A stretch of 64,000 nucleotides of DNA from an uncultured Clostridia bacterium. GTDB lineage: Bacteria > Bacillota > Clostridia > UBA1381 > UBA9506. The notes under the pieces are model-generated. The model had not been told where the DNA came from. It saw only the letters and a list, made by a program, of their open reading frames with translations, and searched no databases. Position 1 is the stretch's first letter. Every line of letters begins with the position of its first letter. Made by a program: the position numbers and the translations under genes. This document shows positions 11,983 through 38,092 of this stretch, piece by piece. The stretch spans positions 1 through 64,000 of the forward strand of contig CALYAO010000007.1 of NCBI GenBank assembly GCA_944393605.1. Direction: 5' to 3'.

Positions 11983-14900
11983 TTAACCAATCTTGGTCAG
12001 CGTAAGGTCGTCAAATGTCACGGACTGGATGCCGCCCACAGTGGATGGGTCGGCCAGCGTAATCCGCAGGGACAGGTCGGTGATGGCCACCGCGCCCTCT
12101 GGGATGGTGATTTGGCAGGTGTATTGCTGGTACGTGCCGCCGTTGGCATCCGCTCCCACCTTGATGTAATTCGTGCCGTCATCAGCCCTCACGGCTTCAT
12201 TCATCTTGGACTCCGTCCAGTCGGTCGTACCGTCTGGCAGCTTGCAGTATGCGCCCGTCTGATCCTGTACAGAGAACGTGACCGTACCGTAGCTGTCGGG
12301 CACAAGGCCATCTGCTTTGGCCCACACCGAAAGCTCATAGATGCCGGGTGCGACGCTGATCGCGCCATAGCCAAGGGCGCTCCAGCCGCGGGTGGACAGC
12401 CATACCCTGACGGCATTGTCTCCGGCGTGTGCATCCGCGGTTTGCACAGGGAATTCGGTTGCGGTTCCGCCCCGCTTTGCATAACCGGCAAAGAACAGGT
12501 TCTCTTTTTGATATTCCTCAAAACCGCCGTTGTAGATGAGGTTTCCGGTTCTATCCGTCACGAGATCCCGCGCAAACGCGATGGGGAGGGTATCGTTGCG
12601 GAAGGGGGCGACGGGGATGCCTTTGCTGTTGGCCAGATTGACGCGGGGCCATCCCTCAAACGCATACCGCACTGTGACAGGGGCGGAAACGTGGGTGCTG
12701 GACAGCGTAACCGTATCTGTGCCCGTGATGGATGCGTCGGCATTGTAAAACACGCCGTCTGCGCCCGCAATCAGGAAGCCGCCGATGGCCTCCTCTTCCC
12801 GTATCTTTTGGAGCCCGTCGTACACGTTGTCAAAGGTGACGGTGAGCGTGCTGCCCGACGGCGTAATGTCCCGCACGGTGGGGTAGTCGCAGGAAACGTC
12901 CTCCCTGCCATACACCTTGGCCAGGATGGTATCCGCCACGCGCCCTGAAACGATGTCTTTGTCATAGGGGTGGATGTCATATTGGTCGCCCGTGTCGATG
13001 TTGCAGGTCATGTATATGTGGTTTGACTCGTCTGCGGCCTGCATCTGCGCCTCCCGGAGCAGCGCGGTGATATCGGTGTAGTAGCCAGGCAGCTGGATGA
13101 CGATGAAGGGCAGTTCAGGCGAGTCCAGGAGGCTCCGCCAGTCGGCCACCATGCCGGTGAGATAGTCTTTGTAGCTGGCAAAGCCATTTACGTTGCTCTC
13201 CCCCTGGTACCATACGACGCCGCTGAATTTCGTGCCTGCGAGCGGCGCGATCATGCCGTTGTAGAGGTCGTTGGACTGGGCGGTGATACCCAGCTCGGCA
13301 CGTGCTTCATTGCTCATCCACCGCTCAATGGCAGTGCCGGGAACGTTGTCCGAAACCAGCCCAATGGGGACATCGGGAAACGCATCGGCAAGTGCTTTGC
13401 CCGTCAAGTAGCCCACAGCGGAGAAGTTTTCGGCATTCGTTTGGGTGCAGTCCACCCAACTGCCGCCCGGCAGCGTTTGCTGTGGCTTGGTAAAGTCCGA
13501 AGATGCGGCATTGATGTCGGGCACCGTAAAGAGCTTGATGTTGGCGGTGTCCTCTCCGGTGAAGTTGAACCGCTTGGTGGTGTAGTCCATGTTGGACTGC
13601 CCCGTAAAGAGCCAGACATCGCCCACCGAAACGTCCTCCAGCGTGAAGCTGTTTTGGGGTCCGGTTATGGATACGGTATGGCCGACTCCCGCTTCTCGTG
13701 CGGCAAAAACGGCTTCCCAACGGCCTGTATTGTCCGCGTAGACCGTCGTGGTATCGTTGTCAAAGGAAACCGTGACAGGCATCCGCGCGGGCGCATAGCC
13801 AAAGATGGGGATGGGCTGGCTGCGCTGTACCACCATGCCGCTTTGCAGCAGGCCCGACAGCGTAATCTCCCCTTCCTTGTAGTCCCGAAGGATGACGTGA
13901 TGGAAGGGCTGCATGCTGGTAAGGGAATCCCACAAGAATGCCTCTGCCCGATATCCCCGAATCGCGTCCGCCGACACATCTTCGGGGATGGTAACCTGGG
14001 CGGTCAGCGTGGTCTCGGGCATGTCGGGGGTGTTGACGGGGAAACCGCTGTCATCAATGGAGATGTCAAGCATCTGGCCCGCTTCGTCAAAGAGCGCCAG
14101 CACCAGGACGCCGCTCTCCGCGGTATCGCTCGAATTGACGGCGGTGGCTGTGGCGGTGAGCGTCTGGCCTTGGTTGTCGCTAAAGCGATCCAGGCTAAAC
14201 TGCGGCGCGCGTACCACCAAAGACTGCTGCGCTTCCGCAAGGGCCAGGTTGTCAAACCATGCGGTTCCGGTGCCGTCTTCCACCACCAGGTCAATTCCTG
14301 CTTGGGTTGCGCCTGCGGGCACAAAGAGAGAGGCGGATACGGTTTCCCAATCGGCGGTTCCGGTGCGCTGTGCGATGGTCTGGGAAGACACCTGCTCGCC
14401 GCTTGCGTCATAGTAAGTCACGCGGATGCGGGCGTATTGCTCTGCAGCGGCGATGGCTTCGGTTTTCATATCCCCTGAAAAGGAAAGCATCCGCCCTTCT
14501 TCTACGGCGAACCGCGGCGAGGACCAAACCTCGTCCACACCGTCTGCATACCCAACAATCTTGAGGGAACGGGTGCCGTCCCCGCTGACGGTAGTGGGGT
14601 CGGTGCGCCCCAGTTTTTCCAGCGAAAAGTCGTCACAGTAGAGCGCAGCGGTCTTGGCAGGAACGCCATCTGCCGCAGCAGTACTGAACCCGTTGGACCG
14701 AACCGCATTGACTCGGTTGATGCTGTATGCGTTGGCCGGAGTGGTGATGGTGGTTTCATACGCATACCAATCCGCCGCGCCGTCTGCAATGGATACCTTG
14801 TCGCCCGCCGTATTGGGGATGGTTTCGCCGGTGCCCTTGATGTATTCAATCTCTGAGTAAATGGGCTCACCGTCCAGGTTTTCTACCTTGACATAGGAGC

Positions 14901-16617
14901 GCATGATATATTCTGCACCGCCCGCAACGGCTATTTTTCCTTCGGGCCGGGCCTGTATAGAGCCCCAGGCCTTTGATGTGCCTTCTTTGAAGGGCACGGA
15001 TGCTGCCTGTTCACCGCTGCGGACATGGGCAGGATCCTCCGTTTTTTTCACGAAATTCAGCGTAGAAACACTGCCTCCGGCATACCAGTATACGTTCTTC
15101 ACATCGTGCTCAAAACTGCCGTCGGGGAGCAGATTGCGGCCGTCTGACGTCCAGCCGATGGGGAATCCTGCTTCATCTACCTGCTCAAAATCGCCGTTTG
15201 AGAGCAGGTCGGGCGGGGGCACCAGCTGCAGTGTCCGTACCATGTATCGGTCGGGATTGTCCACGGCCGTCGCCCGGATGGTGTATGTCCCAAGCTGGGC
15301 GTCGGGTGTGATGGTCAGCACTCCGGTTTCGGGCACAATGGATACCCCCGTGAGGTCGCTGCCCGTCACGCTCCATGTGACCTGTGCTGCGGGATCGATG
15401 TCTCCGGTGTCGCCGTATACCGTGGCGGTAAATGCGATGGTGGCAGGATCCTGCGGCACAGTCATGCTGGTAACATCCGGGTTGGCTGAAATGATGATCT
15501 TGGCCCCTTCGCTTTGGAAGGGCGCAACAGATACATCGTCAAACCACGCGGTATTGCGGCCGGTCACGCCCAACCGGCACCGGACGGACATGTCCGCTGG
15601 CGGGGTGTAGATGGCGGTGTATTGATACCAACCGTTGTCTTCCGATGGGCTGCCAAACGTCACCCCTTCCACTACGAGCCCCGTTGCAGCGTCCACCAGC
15701 TGACAGAAGGTCTCCGAAAGGTCACTGCCTGTGTCTGCCTTGGCATAATAGGTGAGGGTATAGGGGGTGCCGCCTGTGAGCTGCATGGCATTTCCGGTCC
15801 AGAAGTCCTGGTTGCCGTACCCCACGATTTTCAAGGACTGGTTGCCGGTGCGTCCGGTTGTAAGGTCGACGCGGCCCAGCTTTTCAATGGCCATTTCATC
15901 CGCATAAAACGCCAGATAGGGCTGCCCTTCGCTGCGCTCTGTCGGGTTGCCGCGAATCTGGAAATTGGAAAGCGTCGCGCCCGTTCCCAGCTTTTCGGGA
16001 ACCGTCACCGTCTGGCAGAGATGCTGATAGGCGGAACCGCTGAAGGAGTATCTGGTGTACAACGCGTCAGTCTGTCCCACCCTTCGGGTACCGCCGCTGT
16101 CCGTCATATTGGCACTCAGCAGGAGCTGGTCGCCCGCTTCGTAAGCGGTGGGCATGACCCAGCCGCGGAAGAGAAAGGTGTCTCCCGCATCAATGGGGAC
16201 AGAAAGCAGAACGTCCTCACCGCCGCCCCATTTGCGGCTGTACTGGAAGAAATTGGTATACAGGCTTTGGGTTCCTGTGATGGCATTTTCGGAGGCAAAC
16301 GAGATTTCTGCATCCCCGCGGTTGCCGGTATACCATGGCTGCTGGGAGGCGGATGTCTCAAAGCTTCCGTCTGACAGGAGATTCTGCCCGTCGCTTTCCC
16401 ACCCGGCGGGGAAGGCATAGCTCCGTATGATCTCATCCTGCGTGAGGGATGGGTCCATTTTGCCAGCCATCCGCGTCCCGTAGGATTCGTCCAGCTCTTC
16501 AAAGCTGCCGTTTTCCACCAGGTTTCCGGCCTCCTGCGCCCGCACCGGCAGCTCACACCAAGCCGACAGCAGGCAGGTGCAGAGGAGCGCCGCCAAATAC
16601 CGATTGGGTCGTTTCAT
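11983..16617 (-). CDS. Secreted sialate-O-acetylesterase-type (SGNH/SASA) enzyme with nested carbohydrate-binding modules
   Basis: The 1544-residue protein starts with a signal peptide (MKRPNRYLAALLCTCLLSAW, cleavage after VRA). Two large module pairs fill residues about 30-800, with an Ig-like domain between them. In each pair a module opening NGSFE or NGDFE is interrupted after a GW.SDG motif by a complete second module, then resumes at a GR.D...SLKIVGY motif. A ~95-residue module with FLWDSLTSMQPF follows. The catalytic part has GQSNM near 1008 (nucleophile Ser), WYQGESN near 1138 and DQYDIHP near 1213, the blocks of SGNH sialate-O-acetylesterases. A last carbohydrate-binding-like module ends the protein. 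It should deacetylate glycan at the cell surface. It diverges from the AraC sensor gene and has its own promoter and terminator. A paralogue lies at 32481. The acetyl substrate is inferred. Confidence 0.8.
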   Translation of the reverse strand: MKRPNRYLAALLCTCLLSAWCELPVRAQEAGNLVENGSFEELDESYGTRMAGKMDPSLTQDEIIRSYAFPAGWESDGQNLLSDGSFETSASQQPWYTGNRGDAEISFASENAITGTQSLYTNFFQYSRKWGGGEDVLLSVPIDAGDTFLFRGWVMPTAYEAGDQLLLSANMTDSGGTRRVGQTDALYTRYSFSGSAYQHLCQTVTVPEKLGTGATLSNFQIRGNPTERSEGQPYLAFYADEMAIEKLGRVDLTTGRTGNQSLKIVGYGNQDFWTGNAMQLTGGTPYTLTYYAKADTGSDLSETFCQLVDAATGLVVEGVTFGSPSEDNGWYQYTAIYTPPADMSVRCRLGVTGRNTAWFDDVSVAPFQSEGAKIIISANPDVTSMTVPQDPATIAFTATVYGDTGDIDPAAQVTWSVTGSDLTGVSIVPETGVLTITPDAQLGTYTIRATAVDNPDRYMVRTLQLVPPPDLLSNGDFEQVDEAGFPIGWTSDGRNLLPDGSFEHDVKNVYWYAGGSVSTLNFVKKTEDPAHVRSGEQAASVPFKEGTSKAWGSIQARPEGKIAVAGGAEYIMRSYVKVENLDGEPIYSEIEYIKGTGETIPNTAGDKVSIADGAADWYAYETTITTPANAYSINRVNAVRSNGFSTAAADGVPAKTAALYCDDFSLEKLGRTDPTTVSGDGTRSLKIVGYADGVDEVWSSPRFAVEEGRMLSFSGDMKTEAIAAAEQYARIRVTYYDASGEQVSSQTIAQRTGTADWETVSASLFVPAGATQAGIDLVVEDGTGTAWFDNLALAEAQQSLVVRAPQFSLDRFSDNQGQTLTATATAVNSSDTAESGVLVLALFDEAGQMLDISIDDSGFPVNTPDMPETTLTAQVTIPEDVSADAIRGYRAEAFLWDSLTSMQPFHHVILRDYKEGEITLSGLLQSGMVVQRSQPIPIFGYAPARMPVTVSFDNDTTTVYADNTGRWEAVFAAREAGVGHTVSITGPQNSFTLEDVSVGDVWLFTGQSNMDYTTKRFNFTGEDTANIKLFTVPDINAASSDFTKPQQTLPGGSWVDCTQTNAENFSAVGYLTGKALADAFPDVPIGLVSDNVPGTAIERWMSNEARAELGITAQSNDLYNGMIAPLAGTKFSGVVWYQGESNVNGFASYKDYLTGMVADWRSLLDSPELPFIVIQLPGYYTDITALLREAQMQAADESNHIYMTCNIDTGDQYDIHPYDKDIVSGRVADTILAKVYGREDVSCDYPTVRDITPSGSTLTVTFDNVYDGLQKIREEEAIGGFLIAGADGVFYNADASITGTDTVTLSSTHVSAPVTVRYAFEGWPRVNLANSKGIPVAPFRNDTLPIAFARDLVTDRTGNLIYNGGFEEYQKENLFFAGYAKRGGTATEFPVQTADAHAGDNAVRVWLSTRGWSALGYGAISVAPGIYELSVWAKADGLVPDSYGTVTFSVQDQTGAYCKLPDGTTDWTESKMNEAVRADDGTNYIKVGADANGGTYQQYTCQITIPEGAVAITDLSLRITLADPSTVGGIQSVTFDDLTLTKIG

Positions 16618-24339: not shown

Positions 24340-27300
24340 ATGAAGCATTGGAGAGGCTGTTTGGCCGTGACCCTGTGCTTTTTGATGCTGTCAGCGAACT
24401 TGCCCGTTTTGGCGGAAGATGCGGGCAATTTGGTCCCAAATGGCGGGTTTGAACAGGCGGATGCTGTTGGTTTTCCTGTCGGATGGCACTCGGATGGGCA
24501 AAACTTGATGGTAAACGGCGGCTTTGAGGACGGCATGGACAGCAATTGGAAAGCGACTTCGGGCAGTTATGCGCTCTCGGCCGTGCAGAAGTCTGAGGCA
24601 CCTGACTATGTGCGGACAGGAGACCAGGCCGGCAAAGCTGATGTGACAACTGCGACATGGGGCAGTTTTCGGACGCAGTCGTCTACGCTGCAAGCCATTC
24701 CGGTGGAACCGGGACAGCAATACCTGCTGCGCGGTTATGCCAAAACGGTTGGTATGGGCAACATCAAGTTTTATATGACGACGGAATTTGAGGGTGCAAG
24801 CAAGTGGACATCCAAAAACATAGAGATTCCGGACGGTGCTGCGGATTGGACCGAACTCGCAGATACCATGACCATTCCGGATGGTGCGACTTCCATCAAA
24901 CTGATTGACACCGCGCGCACCGGCGCGGGCGTGGTAGGTGCGGCTGTTTACCATGACGATTTCGCAATCGAGAAGATGGGACGGACGGATGCGAATGCCC
25001 AGGCGGGGGAGAAGTCCCTCAAAATTGTAGGCTATGGCGACCGGGACGTCTGGACGAGTGATGCGTCCATCTCTCTTGCGGCTGGTAAGGCATATCGGAT
25101 CAGCTATTACGTCAAGATGGACGGCAATGCTGCCTTGTCGGAGCAGGAGGCCGTTCTGGTGGATACGGTGACAAGTGAGCCGATTTCCGTGGATTTTAGC
25201 AGCTCAAATGCAGGGGATGGCTGGACCAAGATGGAGGCCACCTTCCTGACAAACGGCGCCCAGACGGTCAATTTGGAACTGGCTGTGACCGGGAATGCCA
25301 CGGCGTGGTTTGATGAGGTTTCGGTGACAGAAGCAAAGAGCGGGTCGGGCAGCGTGGAGATTACGGCAGATCCCGACGTGGAGACCCTGGCCATTACAAC
25401 AGCCGAGCAGACCATCCAGTATACGGGTACCGTATTAGATGGCGTTGGCATGCCGGTGCCGGGTGAAACGCTGGTGTGGCGCTTGGAAGGTGACGACACG
25501 ACGGGCGTCATTTTAGATGAGACGGGGCTGCTCACGGTTCGTCCCATCGCAGTGCCCGGCACGTATACCATCCGTGCGGAGGCGGCGAGCGATCCATCCC
25601 TGGTGGGAACAGCGGCTCTCACGCTGACGGCGGCACAGACGGAGCAGGTGAATCTGTTTACCAACGGCGGATTTGAAGAGGCGGATGATGCCGGATTCCC
25701 CACTGGTTGGACATCGGATGGGCAGAATCTGATGGTAAACGGCGGGTTTGAAGACGGCAAAACCTCAGATTGGCAGACCAGGACGGGCTGGATGACCATT
25801 GGGGCCACGCAGAAAGGTGCAGAGCCCGACTATGTGCGGTCGGGGGAGCAGGCCGGCAAGGGGACGATGACCGCCGGCCAAGAAAGTATCAGCTATGCCA
25901 GCTTCCAGACACGTTCAACCGCGATCAAAGAGTTATCGGTGCAGCCGGGGCAGCAATACCAGCTGCGTACTTTTCTCAAAACGGTGAATATGTCGGGTGT
26001 GAAATTCCATATGGAAGTGGAATTTGCAGGCACGAGCAAGGTGGTATTAAAATCAGAGGAAGTGGAGGTGCCAAGCGACGCTGCGGATTGGTTTGAGCTG
26101 AGCTGGACGGTGACGGCGCCTGAAACTGCGTCTGCCATCAACCTCATTGATGTCGCACGTGTTCAAATTACGGGCACAGACGGCATGACGGTCTATTTGG
26201 ACGATTTCTCGCTGGAGAAGATTGGCCGGACGGATGCGGATGCCCTGACAGGGGACAAATCTCTGAAAATCGTCGGATATGGCGAGCAGGATACCTGGCG
26301 GAGCGGTACCGTGGCGCTGACAGAAGGCGTCCCCTACACCTTCTCATACGCGGTGAAGGGAACGGGAACGGGGCGCCTGGTGGATGCGGACAGCGAGGCG
26401 GATATTCAGCTGGGTGATCCGGCAACCGTCGATCTAGGCAATGGCTGGACAAAGTATACGTATACGGTTACCCCCGCGGCAAACGGAACGGCGTTTTGCG
26501 CGCTGGACGTCACGGGCAATGATGTCGCATGGTTTGACGATGTCATGCTGACGACTGCGCCCACTGTGGAAGCGGTTTCGGTGTATCCAATGGATAATAC
26601 CGACTATCTGGAGCGCATGGAGGGCACCACCGGGGATCTCACCAAGCAGTTCGCAGCGGTTTTGGCAGATGGGACAGGCGGCCGCGTGGACGGTGCGGTG
26701 ACCTGGGCAATCGAGCCCGCCATCACAGGAGTCAGCGTGGATGCAGACGGCCTGGTGACCGTAGCGGACACGGTGGCTGAGGGGACTGAGATTACGGTGG
26801 CGGCTTCGGCCGGAGATGTGACAGGGAAACGGGCTTTCACCATCGTGAGCGGAACCCCCGTGCCGGTGCGTGCGGTCATTGAAGGTACGCAGCAGATGGG
26901 TACTTGGCAGGACGGAAAACCTGCCAGTGAAGCATATACCCTCCGGGTGACGGACCAGCACGGCGATCCGTTGACGGATGGGGACGTGGCCTGGGAGATT
27001 GTGCCCGGCCAGACGACCGCTACGGGTTTTTCCATCGACGATATGGGGGTCCTTGCGGCAAGTGAGACGGCGACAGCGGGGATTATTGCGCTGCGCGCGA
27101 CGGTGTCGAAAAATGGAACGAGCTGTACCAGCGCTGTGTTTTTGATACAAGTACGCCAGTCTGTGCGGGGCGTGTCGTTTGTCAGCCATGCGGCCAATTT
27201 GACCGTGGGTGCCAGCCGCGTGTTTACGGCGAGCATTCAGCCTGCAGATGCGGCCAATCAGACCGTGCTCTTTACGACCGATGCACCAGATGTGATAAGC

Positions 27301-29613
27301 CTTTCTGCGGATGGCCCGGCTGTAACGGTCACGGCGCTGGCAGAGGGGGATGCCGTTGTGACGGCGACGACGGAAGACGGCAGCTACACCGACCGCATGA
27401 CGGTGCATGTGACAGCTGGAAGCGCAGAACTGGACCTGACCTTTGAGCAGGACGGTGCGGGTTGGACCTATACCCCGGTCAACCTGGTGCCCAACCCGGG
27501 TTTTGAGGCGGATGAACTTTGGACGAATGCCCGGAAAGATATTGCAGATGCGCGCTATGTGGATCGGTCTGAGATGGCGCCCCACAGCGGGAATCGGTGT
27601 GCAGCGGTGGAATATACCCCGTCGGGGACTTCTTGGGCGGCCTTCCGCAACAGCACGACGACTGCGGAGGTCAATCCATACTCCTCCTATGAGGTAGGCG
27701 CTTGGCTTAAGATGAGTGGAACGCCGGCCAATGGTTCGGCGGAGCTGAGCTTCCGGGTGGTGGATACGCCCGACGCCAAGGTGACCATTCAGGGGGAGGC
27801 ATCTGGTATCGCGCGAATCACACAGGATACCGACGAATGGACCGAAGTTTCAACGACGTTTGAGATTGGGGAAAAGGACGGCGCGGTGGGCCGATATGTG
27901 CAGCTGTTTGCGGCACGCACACAAAATGGCGCTGCCAATTTCAAGGCCTATTTTGATGACTTCCGCTTTGAAACCATTGGCGGCATCGTTGCGGCGGATG
28001 CATATGCGGGCACAGGTGCTATGCGGATTGGCGCATACAACGGGCTGCATGGGGCCCAAGCGGAGCAGGTGCTGTCCGATGTGCTGCCCGTGCAGGCAAA
28101 TAAGACCTATACGGTGCAGGCTATGGCAAAAAGCAGCATGCGAGATACCGCGACATCTGCCAATGCAGCGGTTGGTATCCAATTTGTGGATGCCGCGGGC
28201 GCAGTGGTGGCGGCCCAGCGGGGAGAGACGGTAACCAACACCGCATATGGTCCTGTTTCAGTCACAGCGACCGCTCCTGCGGGTGCGTCAGGCATGCGGA
28301 TCGTGCTGGCAGCAGGCGGAACGGGCTTCTCGTGGTTTGACAATGTTTTCTATGCAGAGGAGATCTCCGAAGCGGCAGGCGTGATCGTTGAGGGACCGGC
28401 AACGGTGGCGCTGCCGGTGTCGGATATGGTTACCAAGACCTATGTGGCCTCGGTGGTGGATCAGTTTGGCGTCAAGATGCCTGGGGAAAGCGCAGCGCTT
28501 TCGCTCGCGTCGCCTTATGCGGGCGTGAGCATGGACAATGGCGTGCTGACGGTGACAAAGGATGCTGCGGCGGGCACAGTGCAGCTTCTGGCCCAAGGAG
28601 CAGGCTTTACGGGTACCATGGATGTGTCGCTGGTGGATGTCGGGGCGTTTCGAATTGTAGGCCTGCCTACGAACATGAGCCTTCCGTCTTCCACACAGAC
28701 TTACACGCTCACGGCTGCATATACCGATGCGGATGGCCAAGAGGTGTCGGTTGCGGCGGAGGATGTGATCTTTTCGCTGGCGAGTACGCTAAACGGCGTG
28801 ACGCTGACAGACAATGTATTGACGGTTTCCCGGGATGCACAGGTCGGAAGCGTGACGGTGCATGCCGTCTGGAAGGCAGATGACAATGTGACAGCGGACG
28901 CGAGCTTTACGCTGTCCAACGGAACGACTACGCCGGGTGGTTCAGGCGGCAGTCCGAGCGGCGGCGGTGGTTCAGGCACGGGTTCGGGCGGAGGCGGCGT
29001 TCCCTATGTGCCGGGCAGTCCCCAATCGCCCGGTACCGTGAATGACCCAACGGCAAGCATCCCCAAGAGCGCATTTGCGGATGTGCCCGCGGAGCACTGG
29101 GCCTTTACCCCCATCAATGCATTTGCGGAGCTCGGCTTTATCAATGGGAAGGATGGAACCAATTTTGACCCGGACGGCATGGTTACCCGGGCGGAATTTG
29201 TGAAGATGCTTTCGAGTGCGATGGGGATTGCAACGAGCGGCACCGTGACCTTTACGGATGCCCAGCCGGGCGACTGGTATTATCCCTATGTGGCGGGAGC
29301 GGCCCAGCTGGGGATTGTGCAGGGTTATGAGGACGGTAGTTTTGGCGCAAACCGCGCCATCACGCGGCAGGAGATGGCAACTCTGGTAAAACGTGCCGCA
29401 GATGCACTGGGCAAGGCTTTGCCGACAGATCGGGCACAGATTGGTGCATTTGGCGATCAAGCAGCGATTGCAGCCTATGCCGTAGACGGCGTGGAGGCGC
29501 TTCGGCAGGCGGGTGTTCTGTCGGGGGATACTGCGGGAAATTTCTGCCCGCAGAACAATGCCACCCGTGCGGAAACGGTCAAAATGCTGTACCAGGTTTA
29601 CCTGTTGAGATAA
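24340..29613 (+). CDS. SLH-anchored surface protein with two nested carbohydrate-binding module pairs (SLH pair 1, first member)
   Basis: The 1757-residue protein has a signal peptide (cleavage after VLA). Residues about 29-335 and 438-740 are two versions of one arrangement. An opening strand (NGGFE...GFP.GW.SDG) is interrupted by a complete module (QNLMVNGGFEDG to an IEKMG or LEKIG ending), then resumes with GRTD...KSLKIVGYG and ends AWFD. Ig-like or Big-type domains and another binding module (about 1045-1340) follow, then a Gly/Ser-rich linker. Three C-terminal SLH repeats (about 1580-1757) carry FADVPAEHWA, MVTRAEFVKML and ITRQEMATLV. SLH repeats bind pyruvylated cell-wall polymer. No catalytic motif is visible, so a glycan-capturing scaffold is likely. 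The ATG has AAGGGGAG upstream. The next gene is a second SLH protein, repeated in region 4. Confidence 0.85.
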   Translation: MKHWRGCLAVTLCFLMLSANLPVLAEDAGNLVPNGGFEQADAVGFPVGWHSDGQNLMVNGGFEDGMDSNWKATSGSYALSAVQKSEAPDYVRTGDQAGKADVTTATWGSFRTQSSTLQAIPVEPGQQYLLRGYAKTVGMGNIKFYMTTEFEGASKWTSKNIEIPDGAADWTELADTMTIPDGATSIKLIDTARTGAGVVGAAVYHDDFAIEKMGRTDANAQAGEKSLKIVGYGDRDVWTSDASISLAAGKAYRISYYVKMDGNAALSEQEAVLVDTVTSEPISVDFSSSNAGDGWTKMEATFLTNGAQTVNLELAVTGNATAWFDEVSVTEAKSGSGSVEITADPDVETLAITTAEQTIQYTGTVLDGVGMPVPGETLVWRLEGDDTTGVILDETGLLTVRPIAVPGTYTIRAEAASDPSLVGTAALTLTAAQTEQVNLFTNGGFEEADDAGFPTGWTSDGQNLMVNGGFEDGKTSDWQTRTGWMTIGATQKGAEPDYVRSGEQAGKGTMTAGQESISYASFQTRSTAIKELSVQPGQQYQLRTFLKTVNMSGVKFHMEVEFAGTSKVVLKSEEVEVPSDAADWFELSWTVTAPETASAINLIDVARVQITGTDGMTVYLDDFSLEKIGRTDADALTGDKSLKIVGYGEQDTWRSGTVALTEGVPYTFSYAVKGTGTGRLVDADSEADIQLGDPATVDLGNGWTKYTYTVTPAANGTAFCALDVTGNDVAWFDDVMLTTAPTVEAVSVYPMDNTDYLERMEGTTGDLTKQFAAVLADGTGGRVDGAVTWAIEPAITGVSVDADGLVTVADTVAEGTEITVAASAGDVTGKRAFTIVSGTPVPVRAVIEGTQQMGTWQDGKPASEAYTLRVTDQHGDPLTDGDVAWEIVPGQTTATGFSIDDMGVLAASETATAGIIALRATVSKNGTSCTSAVFLIQVRQSVRGVSFVSHAANLTVGASRVFTASIQPADAANQTVLFTTDAPDVISLSADGPAVTVTALAEGDAVVTATTEDGSYTDRMTVHVTAGSAELDLTFEQDGAGWTYTPVNLVPNPGFEADELWTNARKDIADARYVDRSEMAPHSGNRCAAVEYTPSGTSWAAFRNSTTTAEVNPYSSYEVGAWLKMSGTPANGSAELSFRVVDTPDAKVTIQGEASGIARITQDTDEWTEVSTTFEIGEKDGAVGRYVQLFAARTQNGAANFKAYFDDFRFETIGGIVAADAYAGTGAMRIGAYNGLHGAQAEQVLSDVLPVQANKTYTVQAMAKSSMRDTATSANAAVGIQFVDAAGAVVAAQRGETVTNTAYGPVSVTATAPAGASGMRIVLAAGGTGFSWFDNVFYAEEISEAAGVIVEGPATVALPVSDMVTKTYVASVVDQFGVKMPGESAALSLASPYAGVSMDNGVLTVTKDAAAGTVQLLAQGAGFTGTMDVSLVDVGAFRIVGLPTNMSLPSSTQTYTLTAAYTDADGQEVSVAAEDVIFSLASTLNGVTLTDNVLTVSRDAQVGSVTVHAVWKADDNVTADASFTLSNGTTTPGGSGGSPSGGGGSGTGSGGGGVPYVPGSPQSPGTVNDPTASIPKSAFADVPAEHWAFTPINAFAELGFINGKDGTNFDPDGMVTRAEFVKMLSSAMGIATSGTVTFTDAQPGDWYYPYVAGAAQLGIVQGYEDGSFGANRAITRQEMATLVKRAADALGKALPTDRAQIGAFGDQAAIAAYAVDGVEALRQAGVLSGDTAGNFCPQNNATRAETVKMLYQVYLLR

Positions 29614-32480: not shown

Positions 32481-35400
32481 ATGAAAAAGGTATGGTGTTT
32501 GCTGCTTGCGGCAGCTCTGTGGTTTGTTGTGATGGGTGCGGTGCCCGTCATGGCAGTAGACGAGACGGGCAGCACGACGGAGTTTGTGCGTAATCTGTTG
32601 GGAAACGGTGGGTTTGAGACGGCGGATGCATTGGGTTTTCCCGTTGGATGGAACTCGCCGGGCACGAACCTCGTCCCCAATGGCGGCTTTGAAGACGCCG
32701 AACCCGCATGGACGGCAAATGGAGGTCTGCAGGCGGTGGACCTTTCGCATACGGGGGATGCACATTCGGGCTCAAAAAGCGCAAAATTGGTATTAAATGG
32801 AAACACAAGCTGGGGTGCACAGGTGTATCAAAATGTTTCGGGCATCCATATCACCAGCACGGTGCCCTATGTATTCCGGATGTTCGTCAAAACATCGGGG
32901 ATGGAGCAACTGGACAGTACGGATAAGGGGGCGCAGCTGGCGGTTACCACATACAATCCGGAGGTCAACCCAAGTGCGCCTTGGAATGACAGCACCAACC
33001 TCATCTGGGGAAATCCCGCGCTCACAGCCGCTACCACGGAAAATTGGGCGGACTGGCAGATGATTGAGGAAACACGGACGTTTGGCACAAGGAGCGGCAA
33101 TCCGTCCAAACTACTGGGACAAATTGCGGGGCGCGTTGGGGTCGGTGCGGACCGTGCGGCTGGGATTACGGTACTGTATGACGACCTGTCCATTGAGAAG
33201 CAGGGCCGGACGGATACTTCTACGGCGGCAACCGGAACGCGTTCATTAAAAGTGGTGGGCTATGACGATGCGGACGGCGCGGGCGAATGCTGGACGTCCG
33301 ACCGCGTATCCATACCGGCGGAGGCGGACGTTCGGTTTTCGGTGAACTATAAGACCGAGGCGATTGCAGGACCCGCCAAGCTCATCGTACGGTTTTATTC
33401 AGAATGTGGCTCCAAGATTTCCGAAAAGACGTTTGAGCTGGAAGACGCATCCGATTGGACCCACTTCTCGGGCCAGACCACGTCTCCTATGACCACGACT
33501 CACGCGGAACTGGAGGTATGTATCCCCGAAGGGACGGGGACCGCATGGTTTGACGACGCAGCGTTGGGGGTCTATGACGAGTCACTCTTGATCGGGGATC
33601 CGGTCTTTAATCTGTCAGATCTGTTTGGCCACTGCGGTGAAACGCTGACCACCACTTGTACGGTATACAACACCATGCAGGAAGCGGCGGAGGTGACGCT
33701 GGTGACCGCACTGTATGACGGCGGCAACCGGCTGGTGGACGTTCGGGTCAACGCGGAGACGCTGCCATCTTCAGTAGACGCCCAGACCCTCCAGACCAGT
33801 CTTCCCATCCCTGACCTTGCCAACCCCAGTGACATCCAGAATTATAAGGTGAAGGTCCTGCTTTGGGACAGCCTTGCTTCCCTGCGTCCGCTGCGCGAGG
33901 CGGTGGTATTTCCTGAGCAAAGCAGTACATTCTCGGTCAATGCCATCTTTCAGGATCATATGGTGCTCCAGCGGGAGAAGCCCATCCCGGTGTATGGCAC
34001 GGGGACGCCAGGGGAGCCCATCACCGTGACGCTGGGGGAGGGTGCACCGGTGTCGGGTGCGGTGGATGCGGACGGCACCTGGCGCGTGGAGCTGCCGGCG
34101 CTGCCGGCCAGCAAAGAGCCCACGGTGCTGACGGTCACGGGCCGCGGACGGACGCTGACTTTTGATGATATCCTAATCGGGGATGTTTGGGTGATCTCGG
34201 GGCAGTCCAATGCGGCACGGCGGCTGGACCTCACCACCTGGAACGACAACAAAGAAAACGAACCGGCCAATGACATGCTGCGGCTGCTCACCATGGCGGA
34301 TGGTGACGCGAATGGCCCAACCGCCCCGCAGACCGAGATTCCCGCAGGGACGGTCTGGACTTCCTATGATCCGGCGACGTCTGCAGAATTTTCTGCGGTT
34401 GGCTATTACTTTGGGCGGGAGATCAACCGGGAATTGGACATTCCGCTCGGGCTCATCAAGGCAGCCATCGGCGGGACGCGGATCGAGCGGTGGTTTACGC
34501 CCGAGCTGGTGCCAGAGGTCAACAATGTGCAGCCCACCTGTGTGCTGTACAACCGGATGATTGCGCCGCTCACCCAGTCCCCCGTCAAAGGCGTCATCTG
34601 GTATCAGGGGGAGGCGAACAGCGGCGCGGCTGATATCTATGATGAACAGCTTCGCAGCCTGATCCAAGGCTGGCGGGACAAGTGGGGCCAGGGAGCTGAC
34701 TTAAACTTCTTAATCTGCCAGCTGGCGGGATATAACCCCGATAGCTATGCCCTCATTCGGGATGCGCAGCTGGCCGTGACCGAGGAGACCGAAAACTGTG
34801 AACTGGTGCAGACCATCGACGTGGGGGATGAGTTTGACGTGCACCCCACCGACAAGGAGACGGTCGGGGTGCGCGCCGCAAACATCGCGCTGGACAAGTG
34901 GTATGGGAAGCCCAATGCTGCCTATGGCCCCACGTTCCAGACCATGGCCATAGAGGACGGCTCGCTGCTGCTGACCTTCGACAATGTGGGGGACGGGATC
35001 AAAACGTCGGACGGCGGCGCTCCAAAGGGGTTCTTCATTGCGGATGACGACTACCGCTTTTATCTCGCGGATGCCGAACTGATCGGCACCAATCAGATCA
35101 GGATTTCGTCTGACCGAGTATCAAACCCTACCCAGGCACGGTATGCGTTCTTTGGCTACCCCTATCCCGATGAGGCCAACTGCTATGGCAGCAACGACAT
35201 GCCCATGCTGCCCTTCCGGACGGATGACTGCGCCTATGCGTTTGACGTGGATATGGTGACGCGCTGGGCGGTCGACGGCGGGGAACTGGTTGCCAACGGC
35301 GATTTTGAGCTCGTGGATGAGAGCAATGTCATTGCGCATTTTACCACCCGGAATAACAATGGTGCGCTATCCTTGCTGACGGGCAACGATGCGTGTGACG

Positions 35401-35855
35401 GGAATTATGCCATCGGCATTACAAACAGTGTGGATGAATGGTGCGGCTTTGTGGGCAACAGCGACAACAATCCAATTCGTGTGGAGCCTGGCACCTATCA
35501 GCTGTCCATGGACGTCAAGACGGATATGAGCGCTCCTGATACCTTCTTTACCGTCTCCTTCAGCCTGCATGACAAATATGGCAACATCCTGACCGCGCCC
35601 TTTGTGGCGAACGGGGAAGCAGTGGATGGAGGCGCCGCACTGCAGTGGAATGCCAACAATGTCATGAACAAACTGATGATGCCCATTATTACGACAGGAA
35701 CGACGGATGGGTATGTACATCAAGAAATGACTTTTGAGGTACCCGAAGGTGGCGCATACCTGTATGCGCTGACGCCGCGGATGCAGATAACGGGTGCCGG
35801 CGGCCAGCCGCAGAGTTTCTGGCTGGATAACTTAAGTCTCAGAAAGCAACCGTAA
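32481..35855 (+). CDS. Secreted sialate-O-acetylesterase-type enzyme, paralogue 2
   Basis: The 1124-residue protein has a signal peptide (cleavage after VMA). One nested carbohydrate-binding pair comes first: NLLGNGGFE, then an inner NLVPNGGFED, then the outer module resumes at GRTD...RSLKVVGY and ends AWFDD. A ~95-residue module with LLWDSLASLRPL follows. The catalytic region has GQSNA near 574, WYQGEAN near 707 and EFDVHP near 784, the three SGNH/SASA blocks. A C-terminal binding module ends the chain. It shares most parts with the minus-strand esterase at 11983 but has one nested pair fewer. GGAAAGGAAGAGG precedes the ATG, and a terminator follows the stop. It should remove acetyl groups that block lyases. 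Confidence 0.82.
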   Translation: MKKVWCLLLAAALWFVVMGAVPVMAVDETGSTTEFVRNLLGNGGFETADALGFPVGWNSPGTNLVPNGGFEDAEPAWTANGGLQAVDLSHTGDAHSGSKSAKLVLNGNTSWGAQVYQNVSGIHITSTVPYVFRMFVKTSGMEQLDSTDKGAQLAVTTYNPEVNPSAPWNDSTNLIWGNPALTAATTENWADWQMIEETRTFGTRSGNPSKLLGQIAGRVGVGADRAAGITVLYDDLSIEKQGRTDTSTAATGTRSLKVVGYDDADGAGECWTSDRVSIPAEADVRFSVNYKTEAIAGPAKLIVRFYSECGSKISEKTFELEDASDWTHFSGQTTSPMTTTHAELEVCIPEGTGTAWFDDAALGVYDESLLIGDPVFNLSDLFGHCGETLTTTCTVYNTMQEAAEVTLVTALYDGGNRLVDVRVNAETLPSSVDAQTLQTSLPIPDLANPSDIQNYKVKVLLWDSLASLRPLREAVVFPEQSSTFSVNAIFQDHMVLQREKPIPVYGTGTPGEPITVTLGEGAPVSGAVDADGTWRVELPALPASKEPTVLTVTGRGRTLTFDDILIGDVWVISGQSNAARRLDLTTWNDNKENEPANDMLRLLTMADGDANGPTAPQTEIPAGTVWTSYDPATSAEFSAVGYYFGREINRELDIPLGLIKAAIGGTRIERWFTPELVPEVNNVQPTCVLYNRMIAPLTQSPVKGVIWYQGEANSGAADIYDEQLRSLIQGWRDKWGQGADLNFLICQLAGYNPDSYALIRDAQLAVTEETENCELVQTIDVGDEFDVHPTDKETVGVRAANIALDKWYGKPNAAYGPTFQTMAIEDGSLLLTFDNVGDGIKTSDGGAPKGFFIADDDYRFYLADAELIGTNQIRISSDRVSNPTQARYAFFGYPYPDEANCYGSNDMPMLPFRTDDCAYAFDVDMVTRWAVDGGELVANGDFELVDESNVIAHFTTRNNNGALSLLTGNDACDGNYAIGITNSVDEWCGFVGNSDNNPIRVEPGTYQLSMDVKTDMSAPDTFFTVSFSLHDKYGNILTAPFVANGEAVDGGAALQWNANNVMNKLMMPIITTGTTDGYVHQEMTFEVPEGGAYLYALTPRMQITGAGGQPQSFWLDNLSLRKQP

Positions 35856-35893: not shown

Positions 35894-35916
35894 TTGACAT
35901 TGCATCAAAAAATGCC

Positions 35917-35945
35917 TATTGTCAAACGGAGCGCCATGCGATATA
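35917..35945 (+). promoter_or_regulatory. Sigma-A promoter for the PL8 lyase gene
   Basis: TTGTCA (35917-35922) and TATAAT (35940-35945) are 17 bases apart, about 78 bases before the GTG start. It opens a new transcription unit after the terminator at 35893. Confidence 0.75.
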
Positions 35946-36022
35946 ATGAAGGCAATTTGGAAGGCAGAAAAGGCAACGGCTGCGGCGGATCCGGCGTTCG
36001 CGGTCTGAAATGGGGGAGTGCC

Positions 36023-38092
36023 GTGGAATCTGATAGAGGGGACTTTTGGTTGATCAAAGCGCGCCTGCGGAAACAGCAGACCGTCTTGCCTTTGGACGGG
36101 GAGCTGGCAGCGGCATGTGTACAAAATATGCGCGCGGATGGCAGTTGGGCGGACGTGGATTATGAGACCAACAGCGGTACGGTGTGGGAGGCACGCGAGC
36201 ATTTGGCGCGTCTGCTGCATCTGGCGCGGGCTTATGCAAAAGCCGGCGGGGACTTCTTGGGCGATGCGGCGGTGCGGGAGGCTGTGCTGCGGGGGCTGGC
36301 ATTTTGGTATGCCGGTGCATTTTGCAATCCCAACTGGTGGCAGAATGACATCGGTAAACAGCTGGAACTGCGGGAGATCGCCCTGTTGATGGAGGCAGAG
36401 CTGCCCCAAGAACGAATGGAAGCGGTTGTGGCGGACTTGCAGACCGAGGTGCCTGCATCCTATACAGGGGCCAATGCGCTGTGGATCGCGCAGAACGTCC
36501 TCTACCGCGGGCTGTTTACCCACAATGCAGAGCTGGTTCGGTATGCGGTGGCGCAGATGGCAGCAACCGTCCGGATGGCACAGAGTATGGAGGATGTGGA
36601 TGGCATCCAGCCCGACTACAGCTTTACACAGCATGGGCGGCAGCTGTACAGCAACGGATATGGGCGGTCTTACTTCACGGGGATAGCTGCGTGGTGTTTC
36701 CTTCTGCGGGATACCTTTGCTGCGTTCCCGCCGCAGGCCATTCGGTTGGTGACTGATTTGTTTTTGAATGGACATCGATGGATGTTTCGATATGATGCAT
36801 GCGACTATGGGACGCTGGGCCGGGAATTCACCCGGCAGCACCATGCGGGACGGCTGGCGATGCAGGACTACCTGCCTGCGCTTGGGATGCTGGCAGAGCT
36901 GCAGGAGGACCCTGTGCGCCGAGCTGGGTTGGAAGCGGCTATGGCGCACATCCGCGGCGAGCAAGCGACGCCTGGGGTCACCGGAAATCGCATGTTTTGG
37001 CGGGTGGACTACATGGCCCATCTGCGGGCACCTTTTTTTGCATCGGTGCGTATGCTGTCGCGGGATGTGACGGGAGGCGAGGAGATCAACCGGGAAAACC
37101 TGGTGGGGGGCTTTGGCGCCTATGGCGCATCTTGTTTTATGACGCATGGGGCAGAATACCAAGGCATCTTTGGCCTGTGGGACTGGACGCACCTGCCGGG
37201 TGTTACGGCGCCGGCGGTTGCACTGCCCACCGGCTTGGGTGCACACATGGATAGCACCTTTGTGGGCGGCGTTTCGGATGGGACGTTTGGCATGGCGGCG
37301 ATGTGTCTGGACAAGACCTATCAATGGCCCGAAGGCGCCGCATCGGCCCGGTTGGCGGGAAAAAAGGCGGCCTTCTTCTGGGAGGACGGCGTTCTGTTTT
37401 TGGGGGCTGGCTTGGCATGTGATGCCCCCCAGCCGGTGAATACGACAATTAACCAGTGCCATCTGCGCGGCAGGGTTTTATTGGACGGTGCTGCTGTACC
37501 TCAGACGGATGCTTTGACGGTGCGGCATGGGACAGTGGTTTGGCACGATGGGATCGGATATGTCTTCCCTGATGGGCAGGATGTCTTGCTGAAAAATGGA
37601 CCGCAGACAGGCAATTGGCGCACCATCACCCAGGCGCCCGACGCCCCGCAGGAGGACGTGTCAGGGGACATTTTTTTGCTGTGCCTGTCCCACGGGGTGC
37701 ATCCGCAGGGTGGTACATATTGTTATGCGGTACTGCCGGGCATTTCCCAGGACTGTGCGGCGGCATACGCGGCGGACGGCTTGCCGTGGGAGATTCGCAA
37801 TGACGATGTTGTACAGGCGGCATGGCACAGCGCCCTTGGCGTGGGGATGGCGGCGTTTTATACGGCAGGGGAGACGGTGCTGGGTGGACAGACCATACGC
37901 GTAGACAGCCCTTGTCTGTTGCTTCGCCGCCGGACGGACCAGGGAGATAGCTATGTGTTATCCTGTCCCTATCGCTGCGGCGGCAGCGTGGGTGTGACGG
38001 TGACGGACCGCAGCGGATGCCGGCGTGTGGCGGTTCCGCTGCCCACGGAAGCAATCAGGATGGGGGCGTCGGTGCCCTTTTCCGTGTCCTAA
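36023..38092 (+). CDS. PL8-family polysaccharide lyase without signal peptide
   Basis: The 689-residue product matches PL8 lyases (hyaluronate, chondroitin AC or xanthan lyases). NWWQNDIG sits near 104-111, TGANALW near 148 supplies the expected Asn (N151), and HGRQLYSNGYG near 204-214 supplies the His/Tyr pair (H204, Y213) with the nine-residue spacing known in the family. The beta-sandwich half follows from about 360 with GNRMFWRVDYMAH. PL8 enzymes cleave uronic-acid-linked polymers by beta-elimination and are normally secreted. None of the start options here gives a signal peptide, which points to cytoplasmic action on imported fragments. GTG 36023 is chosen because GGGGGAG lies five bases upstream; the longer frame to 35894 overlaps the promoter. 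Substrate is undetermined. Confidence 0.85.
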   Translation: MESDRGDFWLIKARLRKQQTVLPLDGELAAACVQNMRADGSWADVDYETNSGTVWEAREHLARLLHLARAYAKAGGDFLGDAAVREAVLRGLAFWYAGAFCNPNWWQNDIGKQLELREIALLMEAELPQERMEAVVADLQTEVPASYTGANALWIAQNVLYRGLFTHNAELVRYAVAQMAATVRMAQSMEDVDGIQPDYSFTQHGRQLYSNGYGRSYFTGIAAWCFLLRDTFAAFPPQAIRLVTDLFLNGHRWMFRYDACDYGTLGREFTRQHHAGRLAMQDYLPALGMLAELQEDPVRRAGLEAAMAHIRGEQATPGVTGNRMFWRVDYMAHLRAPFFASVRMLSRDVTGGEEINRENLVGGFGAYGASCFMTHGAEYQGIFGLWDWTHLPGVTAPAVALPTGLGAHMDSTFVGGVSDGTFGMAAMCLDKTYQWPEGAASARLAGKKAAFFWEDGVLFLGAGLACDAPQPVNTTINQCHLRGRVLLDGAAVPQTDALTVRHGTVVWHDGIGYVFPDGQDVLLKNGPQTGNWRTITQAPDAPQEDVSGDIFLLCLSHGVHPQGGTYCYAVLPGISQDCAAAYAADGLPWEIRNDDVVQAAWHSALGVGMAAFYTAGETVLGGQTIRVDSPCLLLRRRTDQGDSYVLSCPYRCGGSVGVTVTDRSGCRRVAVPLPTEAIRMGASVPFSVS

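Follow-up and report, generated by a model that had tools for sequence, protein, structure and literature searches.

The window, by which we mean the whole stretch of 64,000 nucleotides of DNA that was analysed, encodes three proteins, the surface protein P0001 beginning at 24340 and the esterases P0002 and P0003, in which motif search and translation reveal a CBM_4_9-like module that is interrupted, past its first strand, by a second, complete module of the CBM_4_9-like kind. The first-pass annotation had listed five such nested cases in these proteins, with the same order of parts and the same junction throughout; all five are present as described, order and junction were seen in each once exact boundaries had been set, and a sixth pair (A3) that it had missed was added. 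The hosts and their parts are as follows.

24340..29613, + strand: P0001, host protein with three nested pairs, a Big_2 domain and three C-terminal SLH domains
24427..24501, + strand: P0001 pair A1, outer first strand (NLVPNGGFE...GWHSDGQ)
24502..24978, + strand: P0001 pair A1, complete inner module (NLMVNGGFE...AIEKM)
24979..25335, + strand: P0001 pair A1, outer remainder (GRTD...SLKIVGY...AWFDE)
25651..25725, + strand: P0001 pair A2, outer first strand
25726..26223, + strand: P0001 pair A2, inner module
26224..26559, + strand: P0001 pair A2, outer remainder
27427..27480, + strand: P0001 pair A3, divergent outer first strand (ELDLTFEQDGAGW)
27481..27981, + strand: P0001 pair A3, inner module (NLVPNPGFE...FETIG)
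27982..28359, + strand: P0001 pair A3, outer remainder
11983..16617, - strand: P0002, SASA-type carbohydrate esterase with a GQSN motif, two nested pairs and one ordinary C-terminal CBM_4_9 module
16384..16524, - strand: P0002 pair B1, outer first strand
15877..16383, - strand: P0002 pair B1, inner module
15517..15876, - strand: P0002 pair B1, outer remainder
15136..15210, - strand: P0002 pair B2, outer first strand
14611..15135, - strand: P0002 pair B2, inner module
14230..14610, - strand: P0002 pair B2, outer remainder
32481..35855, + strand: P0003, SASA-type carbohydrate esterase with a GQSN motif, one nested pair and one ordinary C-terminal CBM_4_9 module
32592..32666, + strand: P0003 pair C1, outer first strand
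32667..33203, + strand: P0003 pair C1, inner module
33204..33575, + strand: P0003 pair C1, outer remainder

The junction occupies an identical position in the split modules of P0001, P0002 and P0003. In the five pairs listed originally, the outer opening strand carries the signature NG(G/S/D)FE followed by FP.GW; the inner module starts with NL..(N/D)G(G/S)FE, runs unbroken and ends in IEK or LEK; and the outer module resumes with GR(T/V)D...SLK(I/V)VGY...AWFD. The outer first strand is as a rule 25 residues long (range 18-47, with 47 in B1), the inner module follows it directly and spans 159-179 residues, and the outer remainder comprises 112-127 residues. The first strand of B1 (16384-16524) contains 22 extra residues separating NGSFE from FPAGW, which are found in none of the other pairs. 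Pair A3 (27427-28359) is divergent, with an LDLTFE..AGW opening strand, an inner module running NLVPNPGFE...FETIG and a resumption of the form GIVAADAYAG...SWFDN, and matches the profile of the other five pairs with an E-value of 1.8e-21. Judged by sequence, the recurrence of the architecture is far beyond chance, because identity to the first pair ranges from 27 to 50% across about 300 residues and the same architecture occurs in 12 other genomes. The hosts had been taken for unrelated enzyme contexts; this does not apply to the two esterases, which are related SASA-type enzymes, but is borne out by the third host, an SLH-anchored protein in which a domain search recognised no catalytic domain.

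Probable insertion of one module into the fold of another

The inner module of A1 (P0001 residues 67-200) matches positions 2-127 of the 136 positions in the Pfam CBM_4_9 profile (PF02018), and P0001 as a whole scores 105.7 against a cut-off of 25.9. In the intact proteins, the best CBM_4_9 stretches are the inner or ordinary modules. For the C-terminal part of the outer module taken alone, the match begins at profile position 30-34 (five pairs tried). When the first strand was spliced back, the start moved to position 2-8 in all five pairs, yielding near full-length matches and a gain of 7-12.5 bits: from 27.2 to 38.2 for A1, 20.7 to 33.2 for B2, 13.1 to 24.6 for C1, 17.7 to 24.6 for B1, and 15.3 to 22.6 for A3. 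The spliced outer modules of A1 and B2 thus exceed the cut-off of 25.9, and those of B1, C1 and A3 fall just below it. Aligned with hhalign, the profile of the inner modules and that of the spliced outer modules show homology over their length (99.2%), which places both in the same superfamily.

AlphaFold2, run on an alignment of six sequences (pTM 0.67), modelled the whole A1 pair with a mean pLDDT of 84.6; in the first strand, residues 1-10 reach 91 and residues 11-20 reach 83. When the first strand and inner module were modelled without the outer remainder, residues 1-24 dropped below a pLDDT of 50 and formed a spurious helix; the strand is therefore predicted to be ordered by the outer remainder and not by the inner module. 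The packing of the strand was judged from model confidence together with secondary structure and sequence; a Foldseek search with the predicted pair returned multi-domain alignments of high rmsd that are uninformative on this point.

Across 36 distinct pairs, the NGxFE acid of the outer first strand occurs together with the Asp of the outer WFD motif in 25 pairs, and the two are missing together in 11, with no mixed case. The inner Asp is retained in all 11 pairs lacking the outer acids, and the outer acids are retained in all seven pairs in which the inner Asp is lost or partly lost. The co-loss is mostly found within one sequence group and so may reflect one or few events. The Glu and Asp that vary together may bind a structural calcium; a literature search found no papers on GH101 domain structure or on structural calcium in CBM4/CBM22. 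The spacing is invariant in 36 of 36 pairs, with 5 residues from the outer Trp to the start of the inner module and 7 between the inner Asp and the point where the outer module resumes.

An arrangement without insertion, in which the NGGFE strand would be a remnant or a small element of its own, followed by two tandem modules of which the second lacks its first strand, would fit the shortness of that strand (18-47 residues) and the fact that intact proteins give confident Pfam matches for inner or ordinary modules only. We consider it highly improbable: the outer profile match improved upon splicing in each of the five cases tried, the first strand is predicted to be ordered only together with the outer C-terminal part, and its variation follows the C-terminal Asp of the outer module and not that of the inner one, while its spacing to the inner module is invariant. 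The insertion into the outer sandwich that had been proposed from the five cases is thus supported by profile splicing, differential structure prediction, residue co-loss in 36 pairs and fixed junction spacing, and the opposite outcome, a first strand pairing with the inner module alone or forming its own domain, was not what we found. In sequence and model alike, the outer fold appears to be completed from both sides of the insert, and both parts occur elsewhere as continuous modules, the outer type unbroken and the inner type as single matches. Hence, each case is very probably a true domain insertion, with one CBM_4_9-type jelly roll lodged in the loop past the first strand of another, in putative binding heads of surface proteins and esterases that appear to be re-paired as cassettes and sockets. 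The N- and C-termini of CBM_4_9-type modules lie side by side in the fold, so that such a module could be inserted without upsetting either fold. The joints are short and do not vary in length, conserved landmarks lying 5 and 7 residues away.

Distribution and separate histories of inner and outer modules

A search for the same junction in other genomes, suggested in the first-pass annotation, recovered the architecture in 12 more. Full nested pairs were detected in 13 sampled genomes, 12 of them in the same order as the window genome, where they represent 12 of the 95 genomes sampled. Within the window genome's own family, the window genome alone carries nested pairs (1 of 20). Another family of the order accounts for 11 genomes, among which G023 encodes ten pairs on one contig. 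The remaining genome, G357, belongs to a further family of the class, and among the genomes sampled from its family and order it is alone in having a nested pair. In the window genome, the architecture is confined to the window. A separate scan of genome contigs gave, among the matches read, only unbroken single-module relatives. In 391 genomes of the class and 398 of the phylum, with five candidates scored per genome, the remaining matches are single modules. Most of the single-module matches read are unbroken outer-type modules (for example, NGGFETTDGEGVPEGW...GKALKI), represented in the class by L063, L049, L053, L046 and others, and also by L009 and L010; inner-type modules were found as single matches in class genomes as well. 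The locus in G023 is orthologous to that in the window, with identities of 46% for P0006, 50% for P0004 and 37-38% for P0005. The patchy spread, together with this orthologous locus, is compatible with horizontal transfer of the locus. In L022, L025, L026, L081, L082, L083 and L028, nested SLH giants of related genomes with two nested pairs in tandem, the pairs lose the conserved Asp in opposite ways, from the inner module in the first pair and from the outer module in the second.

The pair had been proposed to move as one unit. This holds for deep divergence: across the 36 pairs, inner and outer distances are correlated (Mantel r 0.80, relatedness uncontrolled) and the two trees share 12 splits. 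It does not hold within the loci of G000 and G023, for which the best joint tree of 16 pairs is rejected both by the inner data (p-AU 9e-5) and by the outer data (p-AU 0.018). The pair fb of G023 shares 58% identity with pair e2b in the outer module and 30% in the inner one, and its inner module groups with that of e1c. The conflict is two-sided: the inner data reject the grouping of fb with e2b (p 0.0008) and the outer data reject that of fb with e1c (p 0.001), although these p-values are optimistic because the clades were picked after the trees had been viewed, and the branches are long. In fb, identity shifts at the junctions. A mirror case is the comparison of slh1 and e1a, with 52% identity in the inner and 37% in the outer module. 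Within the window, the outer remainder of B1 scores 213 and 207 against A1 and A2, compared to 217 between A1 and A2, whereas its inner module scores 57 and 33, compared to 396. B2 combines an A-like inner module with a C1-like outer module. Clade tests restricted to the window were one-sided and indecisive, with a non-significant inner-side conflict (p 0.149 for A1+A2+B1) and several long branches; exchange was therefore assessed by the joint-tree test and by pair fb.

The significant conflict between the two trees suggests that inner modules were swapped between copies, or that the outer modules around them were converted, the two processes leaving the same signature; either would explain why the histories differ within the G000 and G023 loci. 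If instead the pair had been inherited and copied strictly as one unit, the conflict would be noise of fast, uneven evolution. The deep co-divergence (Mantel r 0.80 and 12 shared splits), the weak window-only conflict for the inner data and the several long branches agree with such inheritance, but rejection of the joint tree by both partitions and the two-sided conflict of fb, with its change of identity at the junctions and its mirror image in slh1/e1a, make it unlikely. A fuller version of the exchange scenario, to which we give about an even chance, is that of a conserved outer mount acting as a socket, with complete inner modules exchanged as cassettes at exact junctions among the S-layer proteins and esterases of one locus, so that glycan recognition would diversify faster than the surrounding enzymes. 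Re-pairing of cassette and socket would in this way change what is recognised while the mounting geometry stays.

Locus context, known insertions and likely function

The window also encodes a PL8 lyase (35894-38092) closest to chondroitinase AC (E-value 4e-88), two GH88-type proteins, parts of sugar transporters and AraC regulators. The PL8 lyase, the two GH88-type proteins and the SASA esterases are probably components of a uronate polysaccharide utilisation locus. The substrate that the nested heads would hold at the cell surface and on the esterases is probably a uronic-acid polysaccharide, given the lyase near chondroitinase AC, the two GH88-type proteins and the transporter parts.

Further genes of the locus encode large or surface-associated proteins. 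P0005 (29627-32350), an SLH protein of 907 residues, directly follows P0001; each of the 95 genomes of the order encodes relatives, and many hold more than one copy. A P0005-related SLH protein of about 830-907 residues adjoins a nested SLH protein in the window and in six other genomes compared directly, and the two may form a conserved two-gene surface unit. P0006 (3717-7532; 1271 residues), 46% identical lengthwise to a protein of the G023 locus, gave no Pfam, NCBIfam or meaningful PDB match and is possibly an undescribed polysaccharide-active enzyme. P0004 (7605-11471), 50% identical to a G023 protein, begins with some 780 residues that match no Pfam family, followed by a Cu_amine_oxidN1 domain and two ordinary CBM_4_9 modules.

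Insertions of carbohydrate-binding modules (CBMs) into other domains have been described. CBM4 modules are inserted in GH10 xylanases (Xyn10C type, Pm25), likewise in frame, in a loop of another domain and at many related loci, but there they sit in a catalytic TIM barrel and not in a module of the same superfamily (PMC7848910). In the GH5 endoglucanase MtGlu5, a CBM29-like module, again a jelly roll within a loop, is inserted in a catalytic recipient, and the enzyme without it is less efficient and has a lower affinity for the substrate; unlike the present case, it has a solved structure (PMC9063844). The 'evolved Dit' proteins of phages carry CBMs within a galectin domain, that is, a sugar-binding beta-sandwich module inside another beta-sandwich domain, although with long linkers and with a galectin-fold phage tail domain, not a homologous CBM, as the recipient (PMC9437275, PMC9692632). 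Searched against solved structures, the nested profile gave weak sequence matches to CBM16, CBM22 and CBM4 structures, no nested homologue and no PDB chain matching both of its halves. The best fold and sequence matches, the tandem CBM22-CBM22 of Paenibacillus Xyn10C (PDB 4xup) and CBM16 (PDB 2zew), the latter also from an S-layer associated protein (an endoglucanase), have the same jelly roll but modules placed end to end, without nesting. In the open-access literature, most subscription journals being outside this scope, we found no paper on a CBM within a homologous CBM.

The rigid two-site binding head envisaged in the first-pass annotation is plausible because the modules are joined without linkers. 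The two modules would form a compact, linker-free head; P0001, attached to the cell surface by its SLH domains, would display three of these heads there, and in the esterases they would serve to hold the substrate. Alternatively, the inner module might be a structural spacer or a degenerate copy without sugar binding, leaving binding to the outer module only, or to neither. Surface proteins encoded by related genomes indeed have the conserved acid missing from one module of the two (the inner in most first pairs, the outer in the second), so the standard residues are not required in both. Counted against a spacer are the probable role of those acids, structural and not ligand-binding, their retention in the inner and the outer module of each of the six pairs in the window, and the strong diversification of the inner modules, for which a spacer would have no need; we regard this alternative as rather unlikely.

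CBMs are commonly pictured as beads on a string. If confirmed, a module that is plugged into a homologous one at a fixed joint, occurs dozens of times and is re-paired through recombination would represent a different route to multivalent binding heads, and the nested pair would be a ready-made engineering scaffold. For annotation, it matters that present profiles detect the inner module and mostly miss the split outer one. For the bacteria that carry these loci, re-pairing would diversify what the cell surface and the esterases grip.
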